This document shows, piece by piece, positions 1,383 to 15,261 of a DNA stretch of 33,009 bases. This DNA comes from a bacterium. GTDB lineage: Bacteria; Bacteroidota; Rhodothermia; Rhodothermales; UBA10348. Both the position numbers and the translations under genes were made by a program. Numbering within the stretch: the stretch's first letter is position 1; each line of letters begins with the position of its first letter. The notes under the pieces are model-generated. The model was not told the DNA's origin and did no database searches. It worked only from the letters and a program-made list of their open reading frames with translations. Location: NCBI GenBank assembly GCA_013204185.1, contig JABMOI010000113.1:1-33009 (forward strand), given 5' to 3'.

Positions 1383-2477
1383 ATGAGCCGCTCAAAAACT
1401 CGCTATTCAAGGCCCGGACGAATCAGGCGCCGCGCTCCCAAAATTAACCTTTTGGCCGTGAAAATCAGTTTGTTTGTAGGACTGATCATGGCCCTCGCTG
1501 TGTCCTTAGTTGAATTTCTGTTCTGGGATTGGTCTTGGATAGGAACCATTGTGATCATCGTGGTGGCCTCCTCTTCGGCCTACGCAGCTACGGTAAAACA
1601 TGCCGCGCATCGGCTGGACTTTGTCCGAAGCGCGTTAAAAAAAATCAGGAAAGGCACGTTTGAGCCTTTAGACCTTGCTGCGGAACTCAAGGGTGATGAA
1701 ATAAATGACCTAATCCGGCAAGTTTATCGAACCGGACAGGTGGTAGATAGGGAGTTCGAAGAGCTCAAAAACTTGGAGCACTATCGCCGAGATTTTATCG
1801 GAAATGTGTCCCATGAGTTAAAAACGCCAATTTTTGCGATTCGTGGCTTCGCAGAGACCCTCTTGGACGGCGCTTTGGAAGACGAACAAGTACGATATGA
1901 GTTTGTCGAAAAAATTGTCCGCAATGCCGACCGCTTAGCCAACTTAGCACAGGACTTGTCCGAAATATCTCGCCTTGAAACAGGTCAAAAGGCGATGAAC
2001 ATCCAATCCTTCAGCGTTCAGCGCTGGATAGACGACGTAATTGATTCTGTGGCGCCAATGGCCGCTGCCTCTGAGATTACATTGGAAACAAAGATATCAA
2101 ATACACTTCCTGCGGCTCTCGGAGATGCCCTCCAGCTGCGTCAGGTGCTTACAAACCTGGTAGTTAATGCGATCAAATACTCGAATCCTGGGAAAAACGT
2201 ATTGATTAAGGCCACCCTTTCCAGAAATGAAGCGATTACTATTTCAGTTCAAGACCAAGGAATTGGAGTCAGCAAGCAGCACATTAGTAGGCTTACGGAA
2301 CGGTTTTTCCGAGTTGATAAAAGCAGGTCTCGCGTGGGAGGCGGAACGGGCCTTGGGCTCTCGATCGTGAAGCACGTCCTTGCGGCGCACAACAAGGTCC
2401 TCTACATCAAAAGTACTCCCGGAAAAGGTTCTACCTTTCAATTTGAATTGGACACCGCCACTGAATCGGTTTACTAA
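1383..2477 (+). CDS. PhoR-type membrane sensor histidine kinase
   Basis: The 364-residue protein has a basic N-terminus (about 1-20), two membrane segments at about 25-47 and 51-70 with almost no loop between them, and a HAMP-like linker around 72-125. The HisKA dimerisation helix carries phospho-acceptor H144 in NVSHELKTP. The HATPase domain shows the N box (NLVVNAIKYSN, around N262), G1 box (DQGIGV, 291-296) and G2 box (GGGTGLGLSIVKHV, about 319-332). With no periplasmic sensor domain, it probably senses membrane state or a partner protein rather than an external ligand. It follows the response regulator in the same direction, forming a standard two-component pair. Confidence 0.93.
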   Translation: MSRSKTRYSRPGRIRRRAPKINLLAVKISLFVGLIMALAVSLVEFLFWDWSWIGTIVIIVVASSSAYAATVKHAAHRLDFVRSALKKIRKGTFEPLDLAAELKGDEINDLIRQVYRTGQVVDREFEELKNLEHYRRDFIGNVSHELKTPIFAIRGFAETLLDGALEDEQVRYEFVEKIVRNADRLANLAQDLSEISRLETGQKAMNIQSFSVQRWIDDVIDSVAPMAAASEITLETKISNTLPAALGDALQLRQVLTNLVVNAIKYSNPGKNVLIKATLSRNEAITISVQDQGIGVSKQHISRLTERFFRVDKSRSRVGGGTGLGLSIVKHVLAAHNKVLYIKSTPGKGSTFQFELDTATESVY

Positions 2478-2562
2478 TCGTTGGCTGTAGTCGGAATTGC
2501 CATCTTGAAATTGGGTGTCTGATCGTGTAATCTTGGGCACCCATCCATTCATCTAACTCGTC

Positions 2563-3297
2563 ATGAGCAAAATCCATCTGCTCTCTAGGCCACAAAAGCT
2601 CTTTGTGGTGTGCACAGCCATCTTTTTGACGGCCTTGGTTGTTGCTGAAGCGACCGCTGGAAAGCTGTTTACCGTCATTAAACTTCCCTTCGCCATCAAC
2701 ATCCTCGGGCAGTCCTTCGATGAGGTTGTGATGACGGCCGGTGTCATTGCCTTTCCCATCACATTTATCATCACGGACTTACTCAACGAGTACTTTGGCA
2801 AGCCCGGTATCAAATTCGTGACCTATATCGGCATGATGATGATTATGTTTGAGTTTGGCTTGATCCAGGTAGCGATGTCGGTTCCGACGGCTTCTATCTC
2901 ACCAGTACCTGCAGAAGCATTCAATACGGTATTTGGAGCGAGCGGGCGAATTATTGTGGGTAGCTTGGTAGCCTATTTGGTGGGACAGCTTGCCGATATT
3001 TCTCTGTTCCATTGGCTCAGAAAACTCACCGATGGAAAGCACTTATGGCTCCGCGCGACGGGCTCAACATTCGGTTCGCAGTTTTTGGACACGTTTATCG
3101 TTTTGTTCATCGCCTTCTATGGCCCAATGACCATCCAAACCATTGTTGCCGTAACGCTTTTCAACTACGCATATAAGTTTATTGTGGCCATCCTCATTAC
3201 GCCCCTAATTTATGTGGCCCATTGGGTTATCGATCGATATTTAGGAAATGAAACCTCTCATGATCTAATCGAATCGGCAGCGCTGGAGTCTTCGTAA
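2563..3297 (+). CDS. yhhQ: Queuosine-precursor transporter, YhhQ/VUT family
   Basis: This 244-residue inner-membrane protein has about six hydrophobic segments. Family hallmarks are FPITFIITDLLNEYFG (about 64-79) and the late motif around GSTFGSQFLDTFIVLF (about 167-182). YhhQ proteins import queuine-type precursors (preQ0/preQ1) for queuosine modification of tRNA; that function is known for the family, and no queuosine synthesis gene is present here to confirm it. It begins 85 nt after the kinase stop in the same direction and may be read through from the two-component genes. No clear Shine-Dalgarno precedes ATG 2563. Confidence 0.85.
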   Translation: MSKIHLLSRPQKLFVVCTAIFLTALVVAEATAGKLFTVIKLPFAINILGQSFDEVVMTAGVIAFPITFIITDLLNEYFGKPGIKFVTYIGMMMIMFEFGLIQVAMSVPTASISPVPAEAFNTVFGASGRIIVGSLVAYLVGQLADISLFHWLRKLTDGKHLWLRATGSTFGSQFLDTFIVLFIAFYGPMTIQTIVAVTLFNYAYKFIVAILITPLIYVAHWVIDRYLGNETSHDLIESAALESS

Positions 3298-3460
3298 TAC
3301 TGGGGTAATAATCGAGTTACTTCGAGGATATATCTCCCTTCTTTTTTACATTCACCGATGCTGTCCTTGAACCGTTTTGGGGACTCACTTCAGAAACTGG
3401 CTTACCCGCCAAAAGCCCTCGTTTCTGTTTCCCCGTGAGCCCAGACATTTATCCCATTCC

Positions 3461-5320
3461 ATGAAGCCGTTTCGTAGCCTAGTTTTATTGATCGCGCTGG
3501 TTGGCGTCCCTGCGTTGGCGTTTGGACAACCAGTAACCCAACCATTCACCTTTAGCAATCTTGAACACAATCTGCCCATGCTTCGCCATGGAAGTATTTC
3601 TTGGGGCGATATCGACGGGGACCTGGACCTAGATGTTTTTCTGAGCGGCGAATCAGAGGCCGGGATTGAAACAGGGATTTACATTAACGAGGGCAAAGGC
3701 GCTGACGGGAAGGCCGTATTTACCAAATTAAGTACCAGCATCACAGCGGTAGTGTATTCCTTCTCTTCGTGGGCAGATGTTGACGGGGACTCAGACCTAG
3801 ACCTGTTGGTAGCCGGCAGCACGAGTCTTTCCTTCCCCTATTCCGCCAACACGACGCTCTATCGAAATGATGGAAACGGAGCTTTTTCTGCAACTTCCAC
3901 CGGTTTTCCTGGACTCCACTCTGGTTCATCTTCGTGGGGAGATCTGGATAAAGATGGTGACCTCGATTTAGTACTGACGGGCGTTCAATCCTCTGACGAG
4001 GCCATAACGGTGCTAGCCATAAACCAGGGTGGCTTTCAGTTTACATTGAATACCGATGCGCTTCCGGCTGTCAGTTATGGCGATACAGTGCTCGGGGACT
4101 TGGACAAAGATGGCGACTTAGACCTTGTGCTCTCTGGTTCAAGTGCGACCGGATTTACAACCAAGCAATTCACAAACAACAACGGTGGGTTCACTGCGGG
4201 CACGGCCGAGTTGGGTGCTCTTGGTTTTTCTTCCGTTGACCTTGGAGACTACGACAGCGATGGGGACTTAGACTTGATCCTTTCAGGCGGAGCCATTTCA
4301 GTGAGTCTCATGGACGGAGAAGTGAGACTCCTGCAAAACAATAACGGCGTTTTATCCCCCGTTTCGCATGCGTTTGAAGGCGTCCTCGCGGGCGATGCCA
4401 CTTGGGGCGATTACGACAATGATGGAGACGTAGATCTACTCTTTGTTGGAGCTACAGAAGTGTTTGGAAGACGCAACGCGCGTATTTACCGAAACGATGG
4501 CGGGGGCACCTTTGTCAATTCGTCTAATTTGATTGGATCGCTCTTTTCGGATGTAGAATGGGGCGATTTTGACGCCGACGGCGACCTAGATCTGATGAGT
4601 AGCGGATTTACTCCTTACGGTCAGTCAACCACAAATATTTACGAGAACAGACGCCAGGTTCGGCCAGCCATCCCATCATCGCCATCTGGGCTTGCTTCAA
4701 GGGTCACCGATGGTTCTGTGGAATTGAATTGGACGCAGCCAACTCAAAGCGATCCTACGAATGCATCTCTTTCGTACAACGTACTCGTGGGCACCGCGCC
4801 AGGTGGTTCTGACATTGTTTCTGCCATGGCGGACCGCGCCACCGGCCGGCTAAGAAGTCCTCGCCCAGGCAATGCTTCTTCTTCAGTATCGTTCAAGTTA
4901 GAGAACTTGGAAAACGGCACCTACTACTGGACGGTTCAAGCGATCAATAACGCGCTAATTGCCTCTCCATTTGCAAGTGAAGGCGTGTTTTCAATTTCAG
5001 GTGCTTTTGCAACTGACACTGAAACGTCCGATGTGTTACCCACCAAGTTTGCGCTCAAGGGTAGTTATCCCAACCCGTTTTCTTCAACCACCCATATAGA
5101 GTTTGATATTCCGGCGCCAACTGGGGTAACCTTACGCATTTATTCCATCCTGGGGCAAGAAGTAGCCCGTATTTCAGCTGGGGTCCTGTCCGCTGGAACG
5201 CATCGGCTGGACTGGTCTGGCCTAGACGCCACCGGGCAACGCGTAGGATCTGGAATCTATCTTTATGAACTTCGGGCCGGATCGAATGCAGAAACCGGTT
5301 CAGTTACGCTCGTCCGTTAA
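3461..5320 (+). CDS. Secreted FG-GAP/VCBS-repeat beta-propeller protein with FN3 and T9SS sorting domain
   Basis: I chose the ATG at 3461 (MKPFRSLVLL...) because it puts a signal peptide ending near AFGQ at the N-terminus; an in-frame ATG at 3377 would add 28 residues unlike an export signal. The 619-residue product contains seven calcium-binding-loop repeats of the DxDxDGDxDL type, for example WGDIDGDLDLDVFLSG and WGDLDKDGDLDLVLTG, consistent with a seven-bladed propeller. A fibronectin-III-like segment lies at about 408-515. The last ~94 residues (from LPTKFALKGSYPNPF to GSVTLVR) match the type A T9SS C-terminal domain, with YPNPF and GSGIYLYEL landmarks. It is probably released or anchored on the cell surface as an adhesin-like or binding protein; the ligand is unknown. 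A related gene follows 43 nt later. Confidence 0.88.
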   Translation: MKPFRSLVLLIALVGVPALAFGQPVTQPFTFSNLEHNLPMLRHGSISWGDIDGDLDLDVFLSGESEAGIETGIYINEGKGADGKAVFTKLSTSITAVVYSFSSWADVDGDSDLDLLVAGSTSLSFPYSANTTLYRNDGNGAFSATSTGFPGLHSGSSSWGDLDKDGDLDLVLTGVQSSDEAITVLAINQGGFQFTLNTDALPAVSYGDTVLGDLDKDGDLDLVLSGSSATGFTTKQFTNNNGGFTAGTAELGALGFSSVDLGDYDSDGDLDLILSGGAISVSLMDGEVRLLQNNNGVLSPVSHAFEGVLAGDATWGDYDNDGDVDLLFVGATEVFGRRNARIYRNDGGGTFVNSSNLIGSLFSDVEWGDFDADGDLDLMSSGFTPYGQSTTNIYENRRQVRPAIPSSPSGLASRVTDGSVELNWTQPTQSDPTNASLSYNVLVGTAPGGSDIVSAMADRATGRLRSPRPGNASSSVSFKLENLENGTYYWTVQAINNALIASPFASEGVFSISGAFATDTETSDVLPTKFALKGSYPNPFSSTTHIEFDIPAPTGVTLRIYSILGQEVARISAGVLSAGTHRLDWSGLDATGQRVGSGIYLYELRAGSNAETGSVTLVR

Positions 5321-5363
5321 TCAAAATTATTTTGAGGAATGGGAGCTGCGCGGCGACTGTTCA

Positions 5364-6617
5364 ATGCTAAACCTTATGCAAATCAACGCCCAGTTCTTTA
5401 GAGTCTTGTTGGGAATAGCCCTTGTTTGCCTTTTGGTGGATCCCAGTTGGGCTCAACGTCAATTCGTTTTCGTTACCGGCATTCCCCCGCTTCGTGACGG
5501 TGCACACGCTGGTGCCGATTTTGATGGCGACGGCGACGAAGATGTGTTCGTTTCGGGACGTGCTGAAGACGGAACGCTTCACACAGTACTTTATAAGTTC
5601 TTGCGCAGGCGCGTGGTGCAGTTAGGACCGCTAGCGAAACCGGAAGTGTATGCGGACTATCAACAAGTTCCTTTTTTTAAAACTAGTGTCATGAAGGGCT
5701 CCGTGACCTGGCACGATATGAACGGGGATTCCAGGCCCGACTTGGTGGTAACGGGCCTGACTATATCAGGATATACACCGGATAACTCTGAAATCCTCAC
5801 CCCATCCACCTCAATCTATCTGAATAAGGGCACTGATGACTTTGGAATTGTGCCCAATCACGGCTTACCGGGCGTTTACAACAGTAAAGTGGCCGCTGGC
5901 GATTTCAATGGGGACGGATTTCAAGACCTAGTGATCGGAGGTCAGTCCGCTAATGGACCTGTCTTTAATGTGTGGATAGGTGACAGTTTGCAGCGTTTCG
6001 TGCCCGGTCCAACTTCATTTTCAGGGGTGCAGCCCAGCTCAATTTCCGTTGCGGACGTTGACCAGGACAACGATCTCGATTTTATTGTTGCCGGGGTTGA
6101 CGCAGCAGGCATTGCTAGCATAAAACTGTTCGTAAACGATGGGAATGCTCAATTCACAGAAGCGGAGACCTCCCTGCCAAATCTGTATTTTGGTGGGACA
6201 GCGTTTGGAGACATCGATTTTGACGGAGATCCAGACCTACTTATCAATGGCGGACATCTTGACCCCGTATTTATGAGAGGCGAAACCAGCCTTTTCATGA
6301 ATGACGGCGCAGGGCACTTCAGCAAAGCTCAGACAAACTTCAAAGGCCTTTACGGCGGCGGCGTTTCATTAATCGATCTGGATAGAGACACGGATGCCGA
6401 CGTCTTCTCGTGGGGCATTGAAACGCTGAATCAAATTGGATCTGAACAGATCACCGTTTCAGAGAATATCGACACCTACTTCCTACCCATTGGCTCCGCA
6501 CCTTCCATTCTAAATGGGAGCGTCGCTTGGTTCGATTATGATGGAAATGGCCGAAAAGACGCATTTCTTGCCGGCGATCGCGACGGCGTTCGGTCGATGT
6601 TCATATACGAATTTTAG
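5364..6617 (+). CDS. Exported FG-GAP/VCBS-repeat beta-propeller protein lacking a T9SS sorting domain
   Basis: The preferred start is ATG 5364 (or ATG 5376), giving a signal peptide ending at about PSWAQ. An in-frame ATG at 5265 would overlap the preceding gene by 56 nt and add 33 non-signal residues. The product is about 417 residues and has seven aspartate-rich repeats, including GADFDGDGDEDVFVSG, AGDFNGDGFQDLVIGG and WFDYDGNGRKDAFLAG. The seventh repeat ends about 15 residues before the stop, so the mature protein is essentially one seven-bladed propeller. Unlike its neighbour it has no FN3 region and no YPNPF-type sorting tail, and would stop at the periplasm unless it has another export route. 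The two genes are likely an old duplication transcribed together. Confidence 0.82.
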   Translation: MLNLMQINAQFFRVLLGIALVCLLVDPSWAQRQFVFVTGIPPLRDGAHAGADFDGDGDEDVFVSGRAEDGTLHTVLYKFLRRRVVQLGPLAKPEVYADYQQVPFFKTSVMKGSVTWHDMNGDSRPDLVVTGLTISGYTPDNSEILTPSTSIYLNKGTDDFGIVPNHGLPGVYNSKVAAGDFNGDGFQDLVIGGQSANGPVFNVWIGDSLQRFVPGPTSFSGVQPSSISVADVDQDNDLDFIVAGVDAAGIASIKLFVNDGNAQFTEAETSLPNLYFGGTAFGDIDFDGDPDLLINGGHLDPVFMRGETSLFMNDGAGHFSKAQTNFKGLYGGGVSLIDLDRDTDADVFSWGIETLNQIGSEQITVSENIDTYFLPIGSAPSILNGSVAWFDYDGNGRKDAFLAGDRDGVRSMFIYEF

Positions 6618-7767: not shown

Positions 7768-8706
7768 CTAGCGTTTACCTGGGTTGGTGTAGCCCGCAAT
7801 TCGGGTCGCTTCTGGCGACAGAGTCCATTCTAAGGCGAATTGGTTTAAGGATCCAAAAAATCCAAAACCGCCTTCCACGTTTGAAAACGTACCCGGTTGG
7901 ACCAAGATTTCGGGCGCAAAAAAACCGTCTGGTGGTCTCCATTGGTCGTCCGTGTGGGTGAGACGCATGCCCATCGACATTAAAATGGGTTGATCACCCT
8001 CTCCAAAGCCGAGCTGCCTTCCAACTTCTTTTTTGTCGTCAGCGTATCGAACGACAATTTCCCACCCATTTGCTGTCTGCCTTCCCACGCGACCAGCATC
8101 ATCTCCGTAAATAACTACAGCTTCCCGAAATGGGAGGCCCTCTGTTGCTGTATCCAACGTGCGATACCAGACCTCGACCCGAAACGGAATGAAGTCAACC
8201 TGAGGCCACAACACTTTTTGAGTAACCCCTACAAATCCAGGAACGGGATCGCTCAATTGAACCGACTGCAACGTCGGAATGAGAGTGGTTGCCGAGGCTC
8301 GTTTACCGTCTGAACGCGTCACATTCAGTTCGTAATGAAGACCAGGCACAGGCCTGAAATTACCCACAAAAACGTGGCCAATGGATCCATCAGTAAAGGT
8401 CACAACAGAATCCCGCCAAACGGTAGTAACTCCAGTTTCTTTCTCTGTGGTCGACACCAAGGCATCAATGGACTCGTCTCCGTCCGTTGCAAACTCGGTT
8501 CTGAGTTCAATCACTCGAACAAGTTGCTCATTTGAAGCGGTATCGAGGTACCCATATACAGAGAAGTAGCGGTCCTCCTCAACAAATGGATTGACGTCCT
8601 CCTCGCAGCCTGCCCAAAAAGTGAGGCCAAATATGAATAGAAGGGACAATAAAACGCTCTGCTTCATCGCGGATGTTTTTTTCACTGTGCTTAGGCTTTG
8701 CATCAT
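7768..8706 (-). CDS. DUF4249-type lipoprotein (second TonB-receptor partner)
   Basis: The 312-residue product has a lipoprotein signal peptide. A basic N-region (KK, K) and hydrophobic core (SVLLSLLFIFGLTF) are followed by WAGC with Cys34, then the acidic EED, which resembles the surface-export signal after the lipid-modified Cys in Bacteroidota. The body begins with the family-typical EEDRYFSVYGYLDT segment and is beta-rich (VWRDSVVTFTDG, GHVFVGNFRPVPG, FFGSLNQFALEW). DUF4249 proteins are lipoproteins repeatedly found beside SusC-like receptors; their substrate is undefined. The ATG at 8706 overlaps the receptor stop as ATGA, with GGAG 5 nt before it (8712-8715), implying coupled translation. 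ATG 8667 is an alternative start that also leaves an intact signal peptide. Confidence 0.82.
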   Translation of the reverse strand: MMQSLSTVKKTSAMKQSVLLSLLFIFGLTFWAGCEEDVNPFVEEDRYFSVYGYLDTASNEQLVRVIELRTEFATDGDESIDALVSTTEKETGVTTVWRDSVVTFTDGSIGHVFVGNFRPVPGLHYELNVTRSDGKRASATTLIPTLQSVQLSDPVPGFVGVTQKVLWPQVDFIPFRVEVWYRTLDTATEGLPFREAVVIYGDDAGRVGRQTANGWEIVVRYADDKKEVGRQLGFGEGDQPILMSMGMRLTHTDDQWRPPDGFFAPEILVQPGTFSNVEGGFGFFGSLNQFALEWTLSPEATRIAGYTNPGKR

Positions 8707-11027
8707 TTGTACTCCAACTTTATCCCGAGCGTCGGAATGAGCGGGAGCTGATCTACTCGCCGTAGGGTAAATAGGTCAAGGTAGAACAGATTTCGACGGT
8801 CGTAAGCATTCAAGACGCCCGTCTGAATGGTCAAGAATGTGGTTGGGCCAATTCTAAATTCTCGATCGAGAGAAATGTCTAAGCGGTGGTAGGTTGGTAG
8901 GCGCCCCGTGTACGGCTTGCCATACAAAACGCGCTCTTCGCCTGGCACTTCAACTACGTTAACAAGGCTATCCAACAAGAGCCAGCGATCAAATCCAAGC
9001 GATTCGTTAAACGGTAGGCCGGTTCCAAATTGCCAGCGCACATTAAAGTTGAACCCTTTAATTTTTAGCGCAGTCATGATGTTGATTTGATCCTTTCTGT
9101 CGTGCGGAGGAGAATATTCAACCTCCTTTTCACCCGTCAAAATCTGAAGTGCTCGGGAGGTCGAACCATACACTACCTCGCTTCGGCCCCAGCTAAGGGT
9201 AGTCTGAAATTTATCACTGCTCCCCAGTTCCATGCGAATATCGAATCCTGTGGCATGGCCATCTGCAGGCTGAATATTGGTTGTAAAGCGAGGGAAGGCG
9301 GTCCATTCAGGGACCACAATATTTTGTAGATTTTTGTAAAACCCTTCTGCCGAGAACGTCAACCAGTTGGTCGGTTCAATCCGATATCCCCCGATAAGAT
9401 GGGTAGCCTCCGGCATTTGCCCGCTGGGCGCGGCCGTCCAAGCCGTAAAGATATCGCCGGCGTTTCGTCTGTCATTTAGCCCAGTCACTTCCTGGTGGTA
9501 CACACCACCAGCCATTGACAAACGGTGAATGCCCGTATTCCACACGATGCGCAGTCTAGGCTCTAGAAACGACTGGCCCTTGCTAGGGAAGGATTGCAGC
9601 CTAAGCCCTGGCTGAACGGTCAGACCCTCAATCGGGTTGAATTCGGGCTCAATGTACCCGCCCACCTCAGTGATGTACTCTATGTTCAGGTCGACATTTT
9701 GGAAAATGCCTCCTAAGTTCGAGTCCAATTTAGATGAGCTCAGGAAGATGCCCCAGTTAAAATTGGTGGTACCGATGTAATGCGTCAGGTTAGACGAAAA
9801 TGAAAAGAGAGTTGCGTTGGTTGTTTGGACTGGATCTCCGGGGGGGCCAAACTCGTTTTTCAACTCAGAGTAGCTAACCAGTAGCTCAGCGAAAACGGGC
9901 AACGTTGCGGGAAGAAATATTAAGCGGCCACCAACTGCCAAATTTTCCCAGTTGACCTCATCAGGCACATAGTCTGGACCGGGATCCACGAGCGGATCCA
10001 GACCGAGCCTGCCATTGTCTGTTGTCTGAATTCCCGTTACGGAAAGCTGCGCGCTCTCTCCAAGGTTAGCGTGGATTTTCGCAAAGATATCTCCAAATTC
10101 AAACGGCAGGTCTTGGTCAATCAGCTTGGATGCCCCCTGCTCAATGACCGACTGACGATACGAGGCCAACAATGAAATTTTTCCTGGTAGAAGGGGTCCT
10201 TCCAAACGAATGGTCGACACAAAAGGAGCAACCGTTGCCGCACCTACGAAACGCCGCTTGTTTCCAGTCCGGGCCGTGATATCCAAGACAGAGGATAGCC
10301 GGCCACCAAACTTGCCACCATACCCGCCTGCATACACATCGGCCGTGTTGATGATGTCAGATGGGAAGGCTGAAAAGAACCCGACAATGTGGAAGGGCTG
10401 GAATATCTGCATCCCATCCAGCAACACCAAGTTTTGGGTTGGCTCGCCGCCTCTAATAAAGAGCTGACCGCCTCGGTCTCCTTGAGAAACGATCCCTGGG
10501 AGCGCTGTCAAATAGTTTACCAAGTCAGCAGAAATGTCTGGAGCTGGGACAAGGGAAATATCGGCCGGTCGTATGGTTTGGAGACCTGCCGTTATGTTGG
10601 CCGCCCCAGCTGTCTCACGGGCTCCTTCCACAAAAACTTCGCCTAACTCGGTTTCCGAGACACGCATCTCAATGTTCAGCGTTTGAAACTCATCCGCCTG
10701 CAGCGTGATGTCTTTCTCAAACTCCTCGTACCCAATAAATGAAGCCTTGAGCTTGTACGTTCCTGGCGCAATTCTGGATATGCCATAAAACCCATCTGTG
10801 TCCGATGCGGATCCAAATAAATTGCCATCAACATCCGTCAGGAATACGTTGACGCCTGGCATGGGCTGACCGTCTGATGCATCGGTAACGAAACCTCTGA
10901 CGGTTGCAGTTTGGGCACTTGCTGCCGTCACAAAAACAAGCAGCATGGGCACAATCAAAACTGATTTTGCCAGTCGTTTTAAGAAAAACAATTCTTTGTT
11001 GAGTCTAGATGCGAATGAAGAGCGCAT
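8703..11027 (-). CDS. TonB-dependent outer-membrane receptor with carboxypeptidase-regulatory-like N-domain (copy B)
   Basis: The 774-residue protein has a signal peptide ending near ASAQ (about 39), then a carboxypeptidase-regulatory-like beta-sandwich (about 41-125) with VRGFVTDASDGQPMPGVNV and APGTYKLKASFIGYEE. The TonB plug covers about 145-260, with LFIRGGEPTQNLVLLDGM, FQPFHIVGF and DVYAGGYGGKFGGRLSS. A beta-barrel runs to the C-terminus (LPLIPTLGIKLEYK). It would import a large or scarce substrate across the outer membrane using TonB energy; the substrate is not readable. It is paralogous to the receptor at 11944-14247, with near-identical plug motifs. The 5' leader (11028-11083) has no Shine-Dalgarno but holds the palindrome AAAAACGTTTTT. 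Confidence 0.9.
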   Translation of the reverse strand: MRSSFASRLNKELFFLKRLAKSVLIVPMLLVFVTAASAQTATVRGFVTDASDGQPMPGVNVFLTDVDGNLFGSASDTDGFYGISRIAPGTYKLKASFIGYEEFEKDITLQADEFQTLNIEMRVSETELGEVFVEGARETAGAANITAGLQTIRPADISLVPAPDISADLVNYLTALPGIVSQGDRGGQLFIRGGEPTQNLVLLDGMQIFQPFHIVGFFSAFPSDIINTADVYAGGYGGKFGGRLSSVLDITARTGNKRRFVGAATVAPFVSTIRLEGPLLPGKISLLASYRQSVIEQGASKLIDQDLPFEFGDIFAKIHANLGESAQLSVTGIQTTDNGRLGLDPLVDPGPDYVPDEVNWENLAVGGRLIFLPATLPVFAELLVSYSELKNEFGPPGDPVQTTNATLFSFSSNLTHYIGTTNFNWGIFLSSSKLDSNLGGIFQNVDLNIEYITEVGGYIEPEFNPIEGLTVQPGLRLQSFPSKGQSFLEPRLRIVWNTGIHRLSMAGGVYHQEVTGLNDRRNAGDIFTAWTAAPSGQMPEATHLIGGYRIEPTNWLTFSAEGFYKNLQNIVVPEWTAFPRFTTNIQPADGHATGFDIRMELGSSDKFQTTLSWGRSEVVYGSTSRALQILTGEKEVEYSPPHDRKDQINIMTALKIKGFNFNVRWQFGTGLPFNESLGFDRWLLLDSLVNVVEVPGEERVLYGKPYTGRLPTYHRLDISLDREFRIGPTTFLTIQTGVLNAYDRRNLFYLDLFTLRRVDQLPLIPTLGIKLEYK

Positions 11028-11050
11028 TTTACGGAGTTATGAGGAGGTAG

Positions 11051-11062
11051 AAAAACGTTTTT
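11051..11062. repeat. 12-bp perfect palindrome AAAAACGTTTTT in the leader of receptor B
   Basis: The palindrome lies between the DUF4249 stop (11084) and the start of receptor B (11027). It could be a weak stem-loop or protein-binding site that adjusts expression of the second pair; the sequence alone does not decide. Confidence 0.3.
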
Positions 11063-11083
11063 AGGGCAAAATGACCACTCTTT

Positions 11084-11947
11084 TTAATTTCTTTTCTGTC
11101 CGTCAACAAATCCAAGTGTATTCAGGAACCCTGAATCGATGAACCAGGCATGTTCAAATACGCCCACCGAGCCAAAAAAGCCGTGTGCATTGTCCAAATT
11201 AGCCTCTTTTTGAGGTTCTTTCCACTCATCGCTGAAGACCGTCATTTCAAAAGACACACTTCTGAATTCCACGTCTTTGACCGTTACATTCAACCCCAAC
11301 TGATTCAATATGATGATGCGGTCCGTTACGAGATCGACGTCAAATTCCCATCCGCTTGAGGTTGCCACTCCCGGCTGTCCGTAGGCAATTCGAATGGTTC
11401 GTTCGCCTGAGTCGTCGGCTGGAACGACCACATAGCTCAAGGTGATTTGGATCGGTTTTTCGGTCATGCCCTGCAGCACAATTCGCTGTTTGATATTGAG
11501 TGAGTCGCCAACGGGAGGGTTCACGAACGTGGGCGGCTTGGCTGGAAGTTTGGCTATGGCTTCTGAACCACTTTCTCCATTTCGACTTACAATGAGCCGA
11601 TACGTCCGCCCAAGTTCGGGCCTGAAGTTCGCGGCAAACACAAAACCCGGCTCGCCTGAATTCAAAATAACGGTCGAATCTTTCCAAATCTGAAACAGAC
11701 CGGATTCTGATTCAATGGTTGAAACTTGAACGTCTTCTAAAGAAATTGGGTTCGAAAGCACGTTGGGACGGAGCGCTTCTATTCGAACCACTTGCCTTGC
11801 CACGCGCATATCCAAATATCCATGGATGGCAAACGCTTCAGATCCTGAATCGTCAATGGGCTCTATGGTATTGTCGCATCCTAACAACAACACGCTGAAC
11901 AGGAATGTGATCAGGACCCCGGTATGATGTCGATGGATTTTTCTCAT
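11084..11947 (-). CDS. DUF4249-type lipoprotein (first TonB-receptor partner)
   Basis: The 287-residue protein begins MRKIHRHHTGVLITFLFSVL and has a good lipobox (LLLGC, Cys24) followed by DNTIEP with an acidic run soon after. Body motifs parallel those of the lipoprotein at 7768-8706: AFAIHGYLDMRVARQVVRIE, QIWKDSTVILNSG, FVFAANFRPELGRTYRL and GFFGSVGVFEHAWF. The two are thus clear paralogues. The start overlaps the stop of receptor A by 4 nt (ATGA), so translation is probably coupled. By analogy with SusD it may sit on the cell surface against the receptor mouth, but DUF4249 is not a proven SusD homologue and that role is inference. Confidence 0.83.
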   Translation of the reverse strand: MRKIHRHHTGVLITFLFSVLLLGCDNTIEPIDDSGSEAFAIHGYLDMRVARQVVRIEALRPNVLSNPISLEDVQVSTIESESGLFQIWKDSTVILNSGEPGFVFAANFRPELGRTYRLIVSRNGESGSEAIAKLPAKPPTFVNPPVGDSLNIKQRIVLQGMTEKPIQITLSYVVVPADDSGERTIRIAYGQPGVATSSGWEFDVDLVTDRIIILNQLGLNVTVKDVEFRSVSFEMTVFSDEWKEPQKEANLDNAHGFFGSVGVFEHAWFIDSGFLNTLGFVDGQKRN

Positions 11948-14247
11948 TTCACATCTACTCGAATGCCCAACGATGGGATGATGGGAAGTTGGTCTACCCG
12001 GCCGCCACTGAAGACGTTGTATTCAAAAATATTATTTCGATCGTAGACATTGATTACACCTGCCATTGCAGTGATCGATGCCCCTTTGATCGAAAAAGAC
12101 CGCTCAAGCGTAATGTCAAGTCGGTGATACGTTGGCAGCCGCGATCCGTATAGCTGAGAACGAGAAACGTTCGTTGCGCCGGATGCGGTCACATAATTTT
12201 GATTATTGGGGTCGAGCGAGGACGCGAGGTCCGTGTAGTACCCATTTACCTGCGTAAATGGCAGTCCTGACCCAAATTGCCATCGAATGGAAGCTTTGTT
12301 TGAGCCAAAACGGTACTGAGCCATTGCATTTATCTGCTCCCTCCTATCATGCGGTGGGTTGAACGTTAAGGCCTCAAGCCTCGATGCCGAGCCAAAATTT
12401 GGACGAAATACACCGGTAGCTAACTGGGCTTTTCGCTGGTATTCAACTCGTGAATGACTAAAGGTTAGTGATAAGAATAGATCTTGTGTGGTCACTTCAA
12501 TCTTTGCGTCGACCCCCTGCGCAAATCCATCGACTTTTGAAAACTCAGCTACTTTGTTGATGGCATCGCCGAACACTGGAAAGGAGAGGTCGGACAAATT
12601 TTTCCGGTACCCTTCAAGAGTCAATTCGAGCCAAGGACGTGGCCTGCCTTTCCATCCAGCTATTAGATGAACAGCTTTCGGTACAGGGGTGTTACTTGGA
12701 GAAGCGGACCAAACCGTAAATACATCCGATACATCCTGTTCATTGTTCAGGCCCACAATCTGCTGATAGTACACCCCGCCGGCCAGACTAAATTGGTGGT
12801 GACTTCCTGTTCCACGCGGCAAATAAATGATGCGCGCGCGGGGACCAACCGTGTTATGCAGGCCTCTCGAAAAAATCTCTAGTCTGATGCCTGGCTCGAC
12901 GCGCAGTACGTTTCCAATAGAGAATTGACCTTCAATAAATGAACCGACACTCGTCACTCCAGACTTGCCCTCGGTACCCAAACTTCCCAGCTTGTAGTCG
13001 AAGAAATTGGTGTTTCCGAAAATTCCAAAGTGAATTTGGGTCGGGCCCAGCAAGTAGGCAAACCCAATGTTCATGTTCAAATCAGAAACGTCGGAAGTCC
13101 GGATTTCGTTTTCGGTTGGTCGGTACCGACTTTCGAGACTGGAATAATACACGGACAGCTCCGTCATTACGGCCGATTCCTCGGGTATATAGGTGTATTT
13201 ACCCCCGAAGGCCTTGTTTTTCCACGTCGATTTCCGAAATGCGTCTTCCCCTCCGCTGCTACCTATCCCCAAGTTTCCCTCGTCTGAGGTCGTAAGGGCT
13301 GTGAACGTCATGCTACTCGTCTGATTCAAGTAGGAGTGCAGCTTCACATACCGATCGCCGAAACGGAAGGGTAGATCCTGCCCAAGGACCGCAGGGCTCA
13401 CCCGGTCAATGATGGACTCACGGGCCGAAATAATGAGGGACGTATCTCCGGGGCGAACAGGGATGGAGATATTAAATCCGCTCAAAAAAGGCGCAATGGA
13501 TGCTGAATACGTCAGCTTTTCTTTATTGCCATTGACCGTCTTAATATCAATCACGGACGAAATACGACCGCCGTACCGAGCACTAAATCCGCCGGCATAT
13601 ACGTCGGCATAAGAGATGATATCCGCGGGAAACGCACTGTAAAACCCTACGATGTGGAAGGGCTGAAAAACCCGCATCCCATCTACTAAAACCAGGTTTT
13701 GGGTAGGCGTTCCGCCCCGAATAAACAATTGACCTCCTCTATCGCCTGTAGAAACGACACCTGGAAGGGTCACCAGGTAGCCTGCCAAGTCGTAGGATAC
13801 ATCCGGCATGGGGACGCGCGAAAGGTCTCCGGGCTTGATAATTGAAAGTCCGGCTACAAATCGATTTTCATCCGCTCGCTGGGTCTCCACAAGCACTTCT
13901 TCAAGAAACGTGCGCGTAGGTTGCAGCAAAACATCGTGCAGCTTTATTCTCGGTAGTTCTAATGTGTCCACGCGGGGTTCGTACCCGATGAATGACGTGG
14001 TTAGGATATACGTGTTGGGCGGGAGGTCTGGGAATGTATAGGCGCCTGCTGAGTTTGATATTTCCCCAGCAATCTGGGCACCATCTAGAGACAAAACAAG
14101 GGTAGCTCCTGGCAGGGTAATTCTAGTCTCTGCGTCTTGCACTCGACCCGCAAGCGCAGGTGCCTTGTTGTTCTGGGCCGCCACATCAGTGGCGGCCCAG
14201 AACACAAGAAATAGCAACGATAGGACTAAATATTTCCGGAAAGTCAT
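11944..14247 (-). CDS. TonB-dependent outer-membrane receptor with carboxypeptidase-regulatory-like N-domain (copy A)
   Basis: The preferred start is ATG 14247 (MTFRKYLVLSLLFLVFWAAT..., cleavage near DVAAQ), giving 767 residues; an in-frame ATG at 14313 would place 22 non-signal residues ahead. Domain order equals copy B: a carboxypeptidase-like sandwich (LAGRVQDAETRITLPGATLV, TSFIGYEP), a plug with LFIRGGTPTQNLVLVDGM and FQPFHIVGFYSAFPADII, and a beta-barrel ending LPIIPSLGIRVDVK. It is the first gene of the probable operon receptor A - DUF4249 - receptor B - DUF4249. A 10-bp palindrome (GGTAGCTACC, 14257-14266) lies 9 nt before the start codon, and no Shine-Dalgarno is visible. Substrate unknown. 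Confidence 0.9.
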   Translation of the reverse strand: MTFRKYLVLSLLFLVFWAATDVAAQNNKAPALAGRVQDAETRITLPGATLVLSLDGAQIAGEISNSAGAYTFPDLPPNTYILTTSFIGYEPRVDTLELPRIKLHDVLLQPTRTFLEEVLVETQRADENRFVAGLSIIKPGDLSRVPMPDVSYDLAGYLVTLPGVVSTGDRGGQLFIRGGTPTQNLVLVDGMRVFQPFHIVGFYSAFPADIISYADVYAGGFSARYGGRISSVIDIKTVNGNKEKLTYSASIAPFLSGFNISIPVRPGDTSLIISARESIIDRVSPAVLGQDLPFRFGDRYVKLHSYLNQTSSMTFTALTTSDEGNLGIGSSGGEDAFRKSTWKNKAFGGKYTYIPEESAVMTELSVYYSSLESRYRPTENEIRTSDVSDLNMNIGFAYLLGPTQIHFGIFGNTNFFDYKLGSLGTEGKSGVTSVGSFIEGQFSIGNVLRVEPGIRLEIFSRGLHNTVGPRARIIYLPRGTGSHHQFSLAGGVYYQQIVGLNNEQDVSDVFTVWSASPSNTPVPKAVHLIAGWKGRPRPWLELTLEGYRKNLSDLSFPVFGDAINKVAEFSKVDGFAQGVDAKIEVTTQDLFLSLTFSHSRVEYQRKAQLATGVFRPNFGSASRLEALTFNPPHDRREQINAMAQYRFGSNKASIRWQFGSGLPFTQVNGYYTDLASSLDPNNQNYVTASGATNVSRSQLYGSRLPTYHRLDITLERSFSIKGASITAMAGVINVYDRNNIFEYNVFSGGRVDQLPIIPSLGIRVDVK

Positions 14248-14266: not shown

Positions 14267-14479
14267 GGTTCACATCTTGGGTCGAGCAAACAGTACCCGA
14301 TAGACGACAGCAATGGTCCGGAAAATCCAATTGACTGAAAATACTCTGGAAAAGGGGAATAACTGACATTGAAAGTGGGTTGCCTTCAGTATTATTGATA
14401 TGGGTGTTGTTGAATTGTGTATTTTGTAGCGTCTTCAGAAACCAGTGGCCCCTTTGGGCACTCCAGATCGATTGAAACC

Positions 14480-14722
14480 ATGAATAAGCGAGCTAGATTC
14501 TATCTCTTAGTCATTATCAGCATATTTTTGGCCTTCGTTCTTTTAGATTCTGTCGGCGTTTTTAGTAACACTTCCTACAATGAAGTACCTCACGGTAGTC
14601 ATACGCATTACGTCCCGAAAGACTGTGATCCGCCTCTTGGGGTAAGTGACTCACCCACCAGGCGTCCCGCTGCGAATGAACGCATCGACTGCCAAGGCAA
14701 CTACGTCACGATCTCGGAATAA
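14480..14722 (+). CDS. Small membrane-anchored protein with histidine-triad (HxxHxH) motif
   Basis: The 80-residue product begins MNKRARFYLLVIISIFLAFV, a single membrane segment (about 8-22) with a positive N-terminus, so the remainder should face the periplasm. It then carries EVPHGSHTHYVPKDCDP, with H38, H41 and H43 as an HxxHxH triad followed by Y-V-P-K. This closely resembles the zinc-binding histidine triads of streptococcal Pht proteins (pattern HGDHxHYIPK). Two cysteines (C49, C71) could pair. ATG 14480 was preferred over 14417 because it puts the basic N-terminus directly before the membrane span. It is divergent from the TonB/DUF4249 operon and convergent with the GNAT gene. A metal-binding role is inference from the motif alone. 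Confidence 0.72.
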   Translation: MNKRARFYLLVIISIFLAFVLLDSVGVFSNTSYNEVPHGSHTHYVPKDCDPPLGVSDSPTRRPAANERIDCQGNYVTISE

Positions 14723-14755: not shown

Positions 14756-14802
14756 AGGCGCCTTTGGGTTCTACGCGAGATTCGAATCTAGGCGCCTTTT
14801 GG
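14756..14802. repeat. Direct repeat AGGCGCCTTT(T)GG flanking a 12-bp palindrome
   Basis: AGGCGCCTTTGG at 14756-14767 recurs as AGGCGCCTTTTGG at 14790-14802, 34 bp apart. The palindrome AGATTCGAATCT (14778-14789) directly abuts the second copy. It lies between two convergent genes and the second copy covers the last codons of the GNAT gene. It may contribute to transcription ending, but no U-tract hairpin is evident. Confidence 0.4.
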
Positions 14803-15261
14803 ATCTAAACGCATGGTCGTCCAGTCGGATAAGGCAACGGCGCCAAGTTGTTTATAAAACGCAATTGCCGATACATTCCAGTCCAACACGTTCCAATCCA
14901 ATCTTTTACACCCTCTTTCCGCCGCAATCTCCGCTAATCGTTTAAAAAGGCTCAGACCGATTCCCCTACCCCTGAATTCGGGCTCAACGAATAAGTCTTC
15001 CAGAAACATTCCGAAGTTCGTTAAAAACGTCGAGTAGTTGTGGAAAAACAAGGCAAATCCAACGCACCTACCGGAATCGAGGTCGTGAGCAACTAAAGCC
15101 TCAATTTTGGGATTGGCTCCGTCCTGCAAGTGACCTCTCAAAGACTGCTCATCAGGAAACGATTCGTGTCGCAATTTTTCATACGAAGCGAGCTCATTGA
15201 TCAGACGCACCAAATCAGGTGCATCGTCTGGGGTGGCGAAGCGAATGGAATGTTGGGGCAT
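14788..15261 (-). CDS. GNAT N-acetyltransferase, spermidine/thialysine acetyltransferase (SSAT)-like
   Basis: The 157-residue protein fits one GNAT domain. The acetyl-CoA-binding motif is R97-G-R-G-I-G102 in DLFVEPEFRGRGIG. Features of the SSAT branch are ELASYEKL near the N-terminus, GFALFFHNYSTFLTNFG, and the RLDWNVLDWNVSAIAFYKQLGA stretch (about 120-141) with the likely general acid Tyr136. SSAT-type enzymes acetylate polyamines or side-chain amines such as thialysine in the cytoplasm; the actual acceptor here is not certain. It ends 65 nt from the end of the convergent small gene and begins 10 nt after the M1 peptidase stop in the same direction, so the two are probably co-transcribed. 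Confidence 0.87.
   Translation of the reverse strand: MPQHSIRFATPDDAPDLVRLINELASYEKLRHESFPDEQSLRGHLQDGANPKIEALVAHDLDSGRCVGFALFFHNYSTFLTNFGMFLEDLFVEPEFRGRGIGLSLFKRLAEIAAERGCKRLDWNVLDWNVSAIAFYKQLGAVALSDWTTMRLDPKGA

Follow-up and report, generated by a model that had tools for sequence, protein, structure and literature searches.

A membrane-anchored histidine-triad protein conserved throughout the Rhodothermales is a probable periplasmic carrier of copper or zinc

The window, the whole stretch of 33,009 nucleotides analyzed here (contig JABMOI010000113.1), encodes at 14480-14722 on the forward strand an 80-residue protein that is probably an inner-membrane-anchored periplasmic metallochaperone or buffer for Cu/Zn; its family has no description in the libraries that were searched. 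A membrane anchor, an invariant histidine triad, and metal proteins that neighbor or are fused to it in relatives together make a small metal carrier its most likely function. The reading frame is not a chance ORF, as it belongs to a conserved family.

Translation of 14480..14722 gives MNKRARFYLLVIISIFLAFVLLDSVGVFSNTSYNEVPHGSHTHYVPKDCDPPLGVSDSPTRRPAANERIDCQGNYVTISE, consisting of a single N-terminal membrane helix and VPHGSHTHYVPKD, and both translation and AlphaFold2 confirmed the original prediction of an 80-residue product with one N-terminal span and a triad. A longer frame could begin at the GTG at 14417; the homologues back the ATG at 14480. The helix comprises residues 3-24 (14486..14551, +), and no AxA-type cleavage site was seen after it by eye. 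The triad, H38-G39-x-H41-x-H43 (14591..14608, +), whose histidines are the proposed metal ligands, lies on a predicted β hairpin and runs on into Y44-V45-P46-K47. Further along are Cys49 (14624..14626, +) and Cys71 (14690..14692, +), proposed disulfide partners, and a C-terminal conserved stretch, P59..P63..G73..V76 (P-T-x-x-P ... I-x-x-x-G-x-I-V; 14654..14707, +), delineated from 45 sequences. Upstream alignment within the window's own family of relatives (f1) revealed short genus-conserved blocks around TCAATTG..GAAAATAC and GTATTATT; no clear regulator palindrome was seen by eye in that alignment.

H38, G39, H41, and H43 are identical in 107/107 distinct sequences, in a collection made with the motif HG.H.H for which no homologue lacking that motif was listed. 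The histidines singled out by the original prediction are thus invariant, and neither triad-less homologues nor a protein standing outside any conserved family was found. P63 and G73 are invariant as well, and P59 and V76 nearly so, in an alignment of 45 sequences. The AlphaFold2 model built from 45 sequences is confident (mean pLDDT, 95.4), with helix 3-24 followed by strands 33-38 and 41-46, which form the triad hairpin, and strands 67-69 and 75-77; searches with Foldseek and VIA-align turned up no solved fold that matched usably. Among 106 distinct sequences, 71 have no cysteine C-terminal of the triad, 35 have two, and none has an odd count, pointing to a periplasmic disulfide; in 26 sequences the pair is Cys49 and Cys71. 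Paired cysteines and a charged N terminus fit an oxidizing periplasm, and the protein looks to have its positively charged N terminus inside and the remainder outside the inner membrane. Judged from the helix, the charged N terminus, and the cysteine parity, the membrane-anchored, periplasm-facing placement proposed at the outset looks correct. The residue before the C-terminal G73 is acidic (D/E) in just 43 of the 96 parsed sequences (11/107 were not parsed), which makes a fixed fourth ligand unlikely. Glu67 was dropped as a candidate for that position; it is E in 85/96 parsed sequences and Q or M in the remainder.

A match to the triad protein was present in 57/60 relatives' genomes (E<=1), including 44/44 near-complete ones. 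At class level, a profile of 45 homologues matched 100/146 genomes, with 73/73 from the same order and 27/73 from the class outside that order; the order count was read from the kinship column, where unmatched genomes are ranked nearest kin first and the first of them lies outside the order. A phylum-wide search matched 44/296 genomes, every one from the same class, and the 80 named loci in the species collection are labeled as Rhodothermales, as Balneolales, or as Bacteroidetes or bacteria without further classification, with genera including Salinibacter, Salinivenus, Rhodothermus, Longimonas, and Fodinibius. The triad-family tree, built on few columns and with many weak forks, tracks taxonomy, the pattern that largely vertical inheritance would give. 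No relative was found in the search of viral contigs. Two weak matches (L057 and L058) were discarded as chance matches in other reading frames. In three homologues of family f4 (L047, L049, and L053) the domain is present twice, and the second copy lacks the triad but keeps the proline/glycine pattern. No named family in Pfam or NCBIfam exceeded its cutoff for the triad protein, and no description of the triad family was found in those parts of the searched literature that were available.

One tie to a metal comes from Balneolaceae, where fusion proteins in three genomes combine the triad domain with a C-terminal azurin-type blue-copper domain: L224 (6542-7270, -), L230 (4526-5284, +), and L231 (7797-8552, +). 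All three fusions have the C-x4-H-x4-M pattern; Pfam, scanned on L230 and L231, recognized Copper-bind at 44.9 bits in L230 and 41.2 bits in L231 versus a cutoff of 21.2. At a fourth locus, L227, Copper-bind is encoded by a gene of its own immediately downstream of the triad gene. When plasmids were searched with the L230 fusion, the 15 of 50 matches listed aligned only from query residue 133 on, in the copper-domain part. The triad gene of Balneolaceae also sits within heavy-metal modules: a DUF411 gene lies just before it in L221 and others (ending ~8 bp before it in L221), CusA/CzcA-type RND pumps exceed their cutoff in L221 and L227, and a copper P-type ATPase does so in L221. L230 encodes a CueO-like multicopper oxidase (NCBIfam CueO below cutoff, Pfam Cu-oxidase domains above), and CcmF and an AhpC/TSA-type thioredoxin are encoded beside the triad gene in L230 and L238. 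Some neighbors, namely, DsrE-like, SnoaL-like, and TolC-like proteins and membrane-fusion subunits in L225, L227, and L228, were named by eye. Metal modules occur in 10/18 selected loci (L221-L228, L230, and L231), which is not an unbiased rate since the 18 were picked partly for second copies or for nearness to ArsP_1 or cobW. Family scans covered L221, L223, L226, L227, L230, L231, and L238, and the others of the 18 were inspected by eye; no metal module was seen in this way in L232-L237 or L239. As a separate observation, L229 (14271-17045, -; genome G110) has three tandem COG0523-like genes ~24 kb from a triad gene. The fusions and copper modules would favor copper as the metal.

These data raise a narrower form of the carrier explanation, namely, that the protein delivers copper to cuproproteins, respiratory or other, as they are assembled. 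Such general help with copper insertion would explain the presence of the gene in all 73 genomes of the order, and the Copper-bind fusions agree with it, as do the CcmF and AhpC/TSA neighbors of L230 and L238 and the multicopper oxidase of L230. However, no terminal-oxidase gene was identified beside the triad gene in the loci examined, the family is absent from 46/73 class genomes outside the order, and neighbors in other lineages are of zinc type. We regard this narrower role as possible but rather doubtful.

The neighbors in those other lineages are diverse. In family f8, all three genomes (3/3) have a Cu/Zn-efflux-like permease directly upstream on the same strand, together with an MntR/DtxR-type regulator; in L169 the permease scores best with NCBIfam SO_0444 Cu/Zn efflux, at 206 bits versus a cutoff of 300, and exceeds the cutoff of ArsP_1. 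Within the same family, a cobW gene lies ~2.7 kb downstream of the triad gene in genome G033, and the DNA just before the triad gene of L048 encodes, by eye, a histidine-rich stretch. Salinibacter altiplanensis (L168) and a relative that is uncultured (L170) have a second copy of the triad gene among codirectional genes; these encode a TonB receptor of hemin/ZnuD-like type and a COG0523 GTPase in which a long loop is rich in His. These groups (L168, 2095-7572; L170, 207-5579) hold TonB receptor, DsrE-like, triad, and COG0523 genes in a slightly different order; ZnuA had no match in the S. altiplanensis genome (G057). In family f14, a ZnuD-like receptor adjoins the triad gene convergently in 3/3 loci, and that of L039 has Zn_piracy_ZnuD as its best NCBIfam match (7e-54, below cutoff). 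L136 encodes a receptor closest to a copper-receptor model (below cutoff) and a YtkA-like protein; this group (1688-5876, -), which also includes a small Cys-rich ORF and faces the triad gene, resembles an operon for metal acquisition that has no name. A MerC-like gene is near the triad gene in L163, L164, and L174. COG0523, the ZnuD-like receptors, and the resemblance to Pht proteins would favor zinc.

That resemblance, on which the original prediction was built, was only partly upheld. According to the portions available of the published account, Pht histidine triads bind Zn, and the Pht repeat motif [DEH]-G-phi-x(12,16)-phi-phi-phi-x-H-xx-H-x-H-phi-phi is present in at least two copies per protein (PMC3842936). 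The likeness to Pht/HTP (PF04270 and TIGR01363) lies in HGxHxHY[VI]PK, which is nearly identical and is likewise placed on a β hairpin, apparently outside the membrane. The triad half of the published motif was matched in 19/118 homologues, with one triad per protein among those listed, and the family profile matched the Pht chains PhtA 2cs7 (E 4.6e-4), PhtD 9p1v (6.1e-4), and PhtD 6csl (0.019) across ~15 residues around the triad only. The Pht-like triad itself is therefore real and invariant, but membership in the Pht family was rejected: the full motif occurs in 0/118 homologues, and the window protein reaches 17.4 bits versus a curated cutoff of 27 for PF04270. PF04270 weakly matches 45/45 family members at E<=1 (best E, 3.7e-4), the window protein is below the TIGR01363 cutoff, and nothing in its own genome exceeds that of PF04270. 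The window protein has one triad in 80 amino acids with a membrane helix, whereas Pht proteins have several triads. In Pht a [DEH]-G strand precedes the triad, while the triad family lacks it and has a G-containing strand after the triad instead; the triad domain could thus be a circular permutation of the Pht unit. The fourth Pht ligand, an Asp/Glu ~20 residues before the triad that the [DEH]-G strand supplies, corresponds to a position that lies in the membrane helix of the window protein and is not conserved. The two groups also differ in taxon, the triad family being from the class Rhodothermia and Pht from Firmicutes, and in context, as no ZnuA gene was found beside the triad gene in the eight genomes checked, unlike pht-adcAII.

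CusF and ZinT, small metal carriers of the periplasm, cooperate with metal pumps or uptake systems, and their ligands and folds differ from those of the triad protein, for which Pfam gave no match to CusF/ZinT-type families. ZepA has a three-histidine site outside the cytoplasm, as the triad protein probably does; in the available portions of its description it is a secreted two-domain exoprotein with the motif H-X2-9-H-[FY]-H and a PEP-CTERM tail, and in its gene neighborhoods, too, COG0523, TonB receptors, and regulators of the Fur family are encoded (PMC10957091). The ZepA motif failed in 107/107 sequences, residue 42 being T, V, S, K, or I in all 107 and never F/Y.

In the window, the neighbors of the triad gene encode a TonB receptor, a DUF4249 protein, a GNAT acetyltransferase, an M1 peptidase, and YceI, and no dedicated metal gene adjoins the triad gene in the window or the f1 loci examined. 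The divergent TonB-dependent receptor (Plug and CarboxypepD_reg by Pfam; 11944..14247, -) is followed by a DUF4249-type gene for 287 amino acids (approximately 11084..11947, -), assigned by clustering with window gene 7768-8706, which matches DUF4249 (PF14054). Downstream and convergent is the acetyltransferase gene (14788..15261, -; Pfam), a neighbor in f1, f2, and f3 that reflects synteny only. Overall, 7768-14247 (-) comprises two tandem TonB receptor/DUF4249 pairs whose receptors are 40% identical. DUF4249 proteins, which are unrelated to the triad protein, have been proposed to work with TonB transporters as partners or lids, in the available text of a report that cites a preprint on lids (PMC11003636).

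The original prediction suggested the triad protein as a partner of this transport system and proposed looking for repeated linkage. The linkage recurs in part: the divergent receptor directly adjoins the triad gene in 23/23 testable loci of f1, 2/2 of f11, 2/2 testable loci of f2, 3/3 of f4, and 2/3 of f15, with 22-44 TonB receptors per genome in ten genomes, so that ~2% of genes would have one adjacent by chance. Orthology comparison placed the f1 and f11 receptors closest to the window's adjacent receptor and those of f15 closest to the next receptor of the tandem; in f15 only a pair like the window's farther TonB/DUF4249 pair adjoins the triad gene. No DUF4249-type receptor is an immediate neighbor in f3, f6-f10, f12-f14, or most Balneolales, and at six loci in Balneolales the divergent receptor is of a different type. 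A dedicated TonB/DUF4249 partnership is therefore not supported: the triad gene is conserved without the operon, which makes the operon lineage synteny and not a defining partner. The recurring context of the family appears to be metals.

Could the protein still be a zinc-specific periplasmic scavenger, like a single Pht repeat, that feeds zinc uptake, including through the adjoining TonB/DUF4249 receptor? We consider this unlikely. The match to PhtA and PhtD, the ZnuD-like receptor in all three f14 loci, the His-rich COG0523 GTPase with its hemin/ZnuD-like receptor in L168 and L170, and the conservation of the divergent receptor in f1, f2, f4, f11, and most of f15 are as expected of such a scavenger. 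The blue-copper fusions and copper modules of Balneolaceae are not, adjacent receptors are of unrelated types across lineages, ZnuA genes do not adjoin the triad gene in the eight genomes, and the triad gene persists where the DUF4249-type receptor does not. Zinc, the metal first suggested, is not established, and the fusions and many of the neighbors seem to point at least equally to copper.

Metal neighbors are not universal. A genetic link between the triad gene and metal transport or metalloproteins is present in relatives but not in the window's own family; no metal neighbor was found in f3, f6, f7, f9, f10, f12, or the main f13 copies, and in several families the neighbors are housekeeping genes only. 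In genome G000, cobW had no match, and the ZnuA-type, ArsP_1, and DUF411 genes are on contigs other than that of the triad gene. Picking the longest ORF as neighbor hid the DsrE-like gene of L168 and cobW of L170 behind antisense ORFs, so negative neighborhoods in high-GC loci are less certain. Over 146 class genomes, independently of the choice of 18 loci, DUF411 lay within 5 kb of a triad-family gene in 7/136 cases, ArsP_1 in 3/60, and cobW in 2/47, against upper-bound random expectations of 0.39, 0.17, and 0.14 (Poisson P, 2e-7, 8e-4, and 0.008, respectively). Positions were compared by eye, and the counts are not phylogenetically independent; the three ArsP_1 cases are all from f8 and the seven DUF411 cases all from f18, suggesting few events, and the loci rich in metal genes belong to a handful of lineages, so the probabilities overstate independence. 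The metal-handling role first put forward is thus strengthened by neighbors and fusions in relatives and not by the window's own genes, and neighborhoods with metal genes in some lineages stand beside many families with none. A structural or binding role of the hairpin without metal transfer, for example as a small accessory subunit of some unrelated envelope complex, with incidental metal neighbors, is improbable: mostly housekeeping neighbors in many families and the conservation of P63 and G73 to the level of the histidines would suit it, but the invariance of the triad in 107/107 sequences, the fusions to copper domains, and the way in which separate lineages have each joined it to a different metal module argue against it.

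We therefore favor a metallochaperone or buffer for Cu/Zn. In such a model, the N-terminal helix would tether the protein in the inner membrane, and the outer 50 residues would fold as a small hairpin domain. Its three invariant histidines would coordinate a single ion of a borderline transition metal, copper and/or zinc, leaving the fourth site open or weakly held. From the outer surface of the inner membrane, the protein would buffer Cu/Zn and hand ions to envelope partners, which may vary by lineage and include efflux pumps (RND or P-type), cupredoxins and copper oxidases, or systems for uptake. A bolder proposal, to which we give only a modest chance, is that the family provides the order, in every genome sampled, with its core copper carrier of the periplasm, a Pht-permuted triad domain plugged into pumps, receptors, and an azurin-type fusion.

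An order-wide gene with an invariant triad and no named family makes a good candidate for some basic function of metals in the envelope, which would concern Rhodothermales and part of Balneolales. With the blue-copper fusions, what began as a guess from a short motif becomes a claim on one specific protein that can be tested. Streptococcal Pht surface proteins are vaccine candidates, and the triad family offers a model, single-domain and Gram-negative, of a site that until now was known from those surface proteins.
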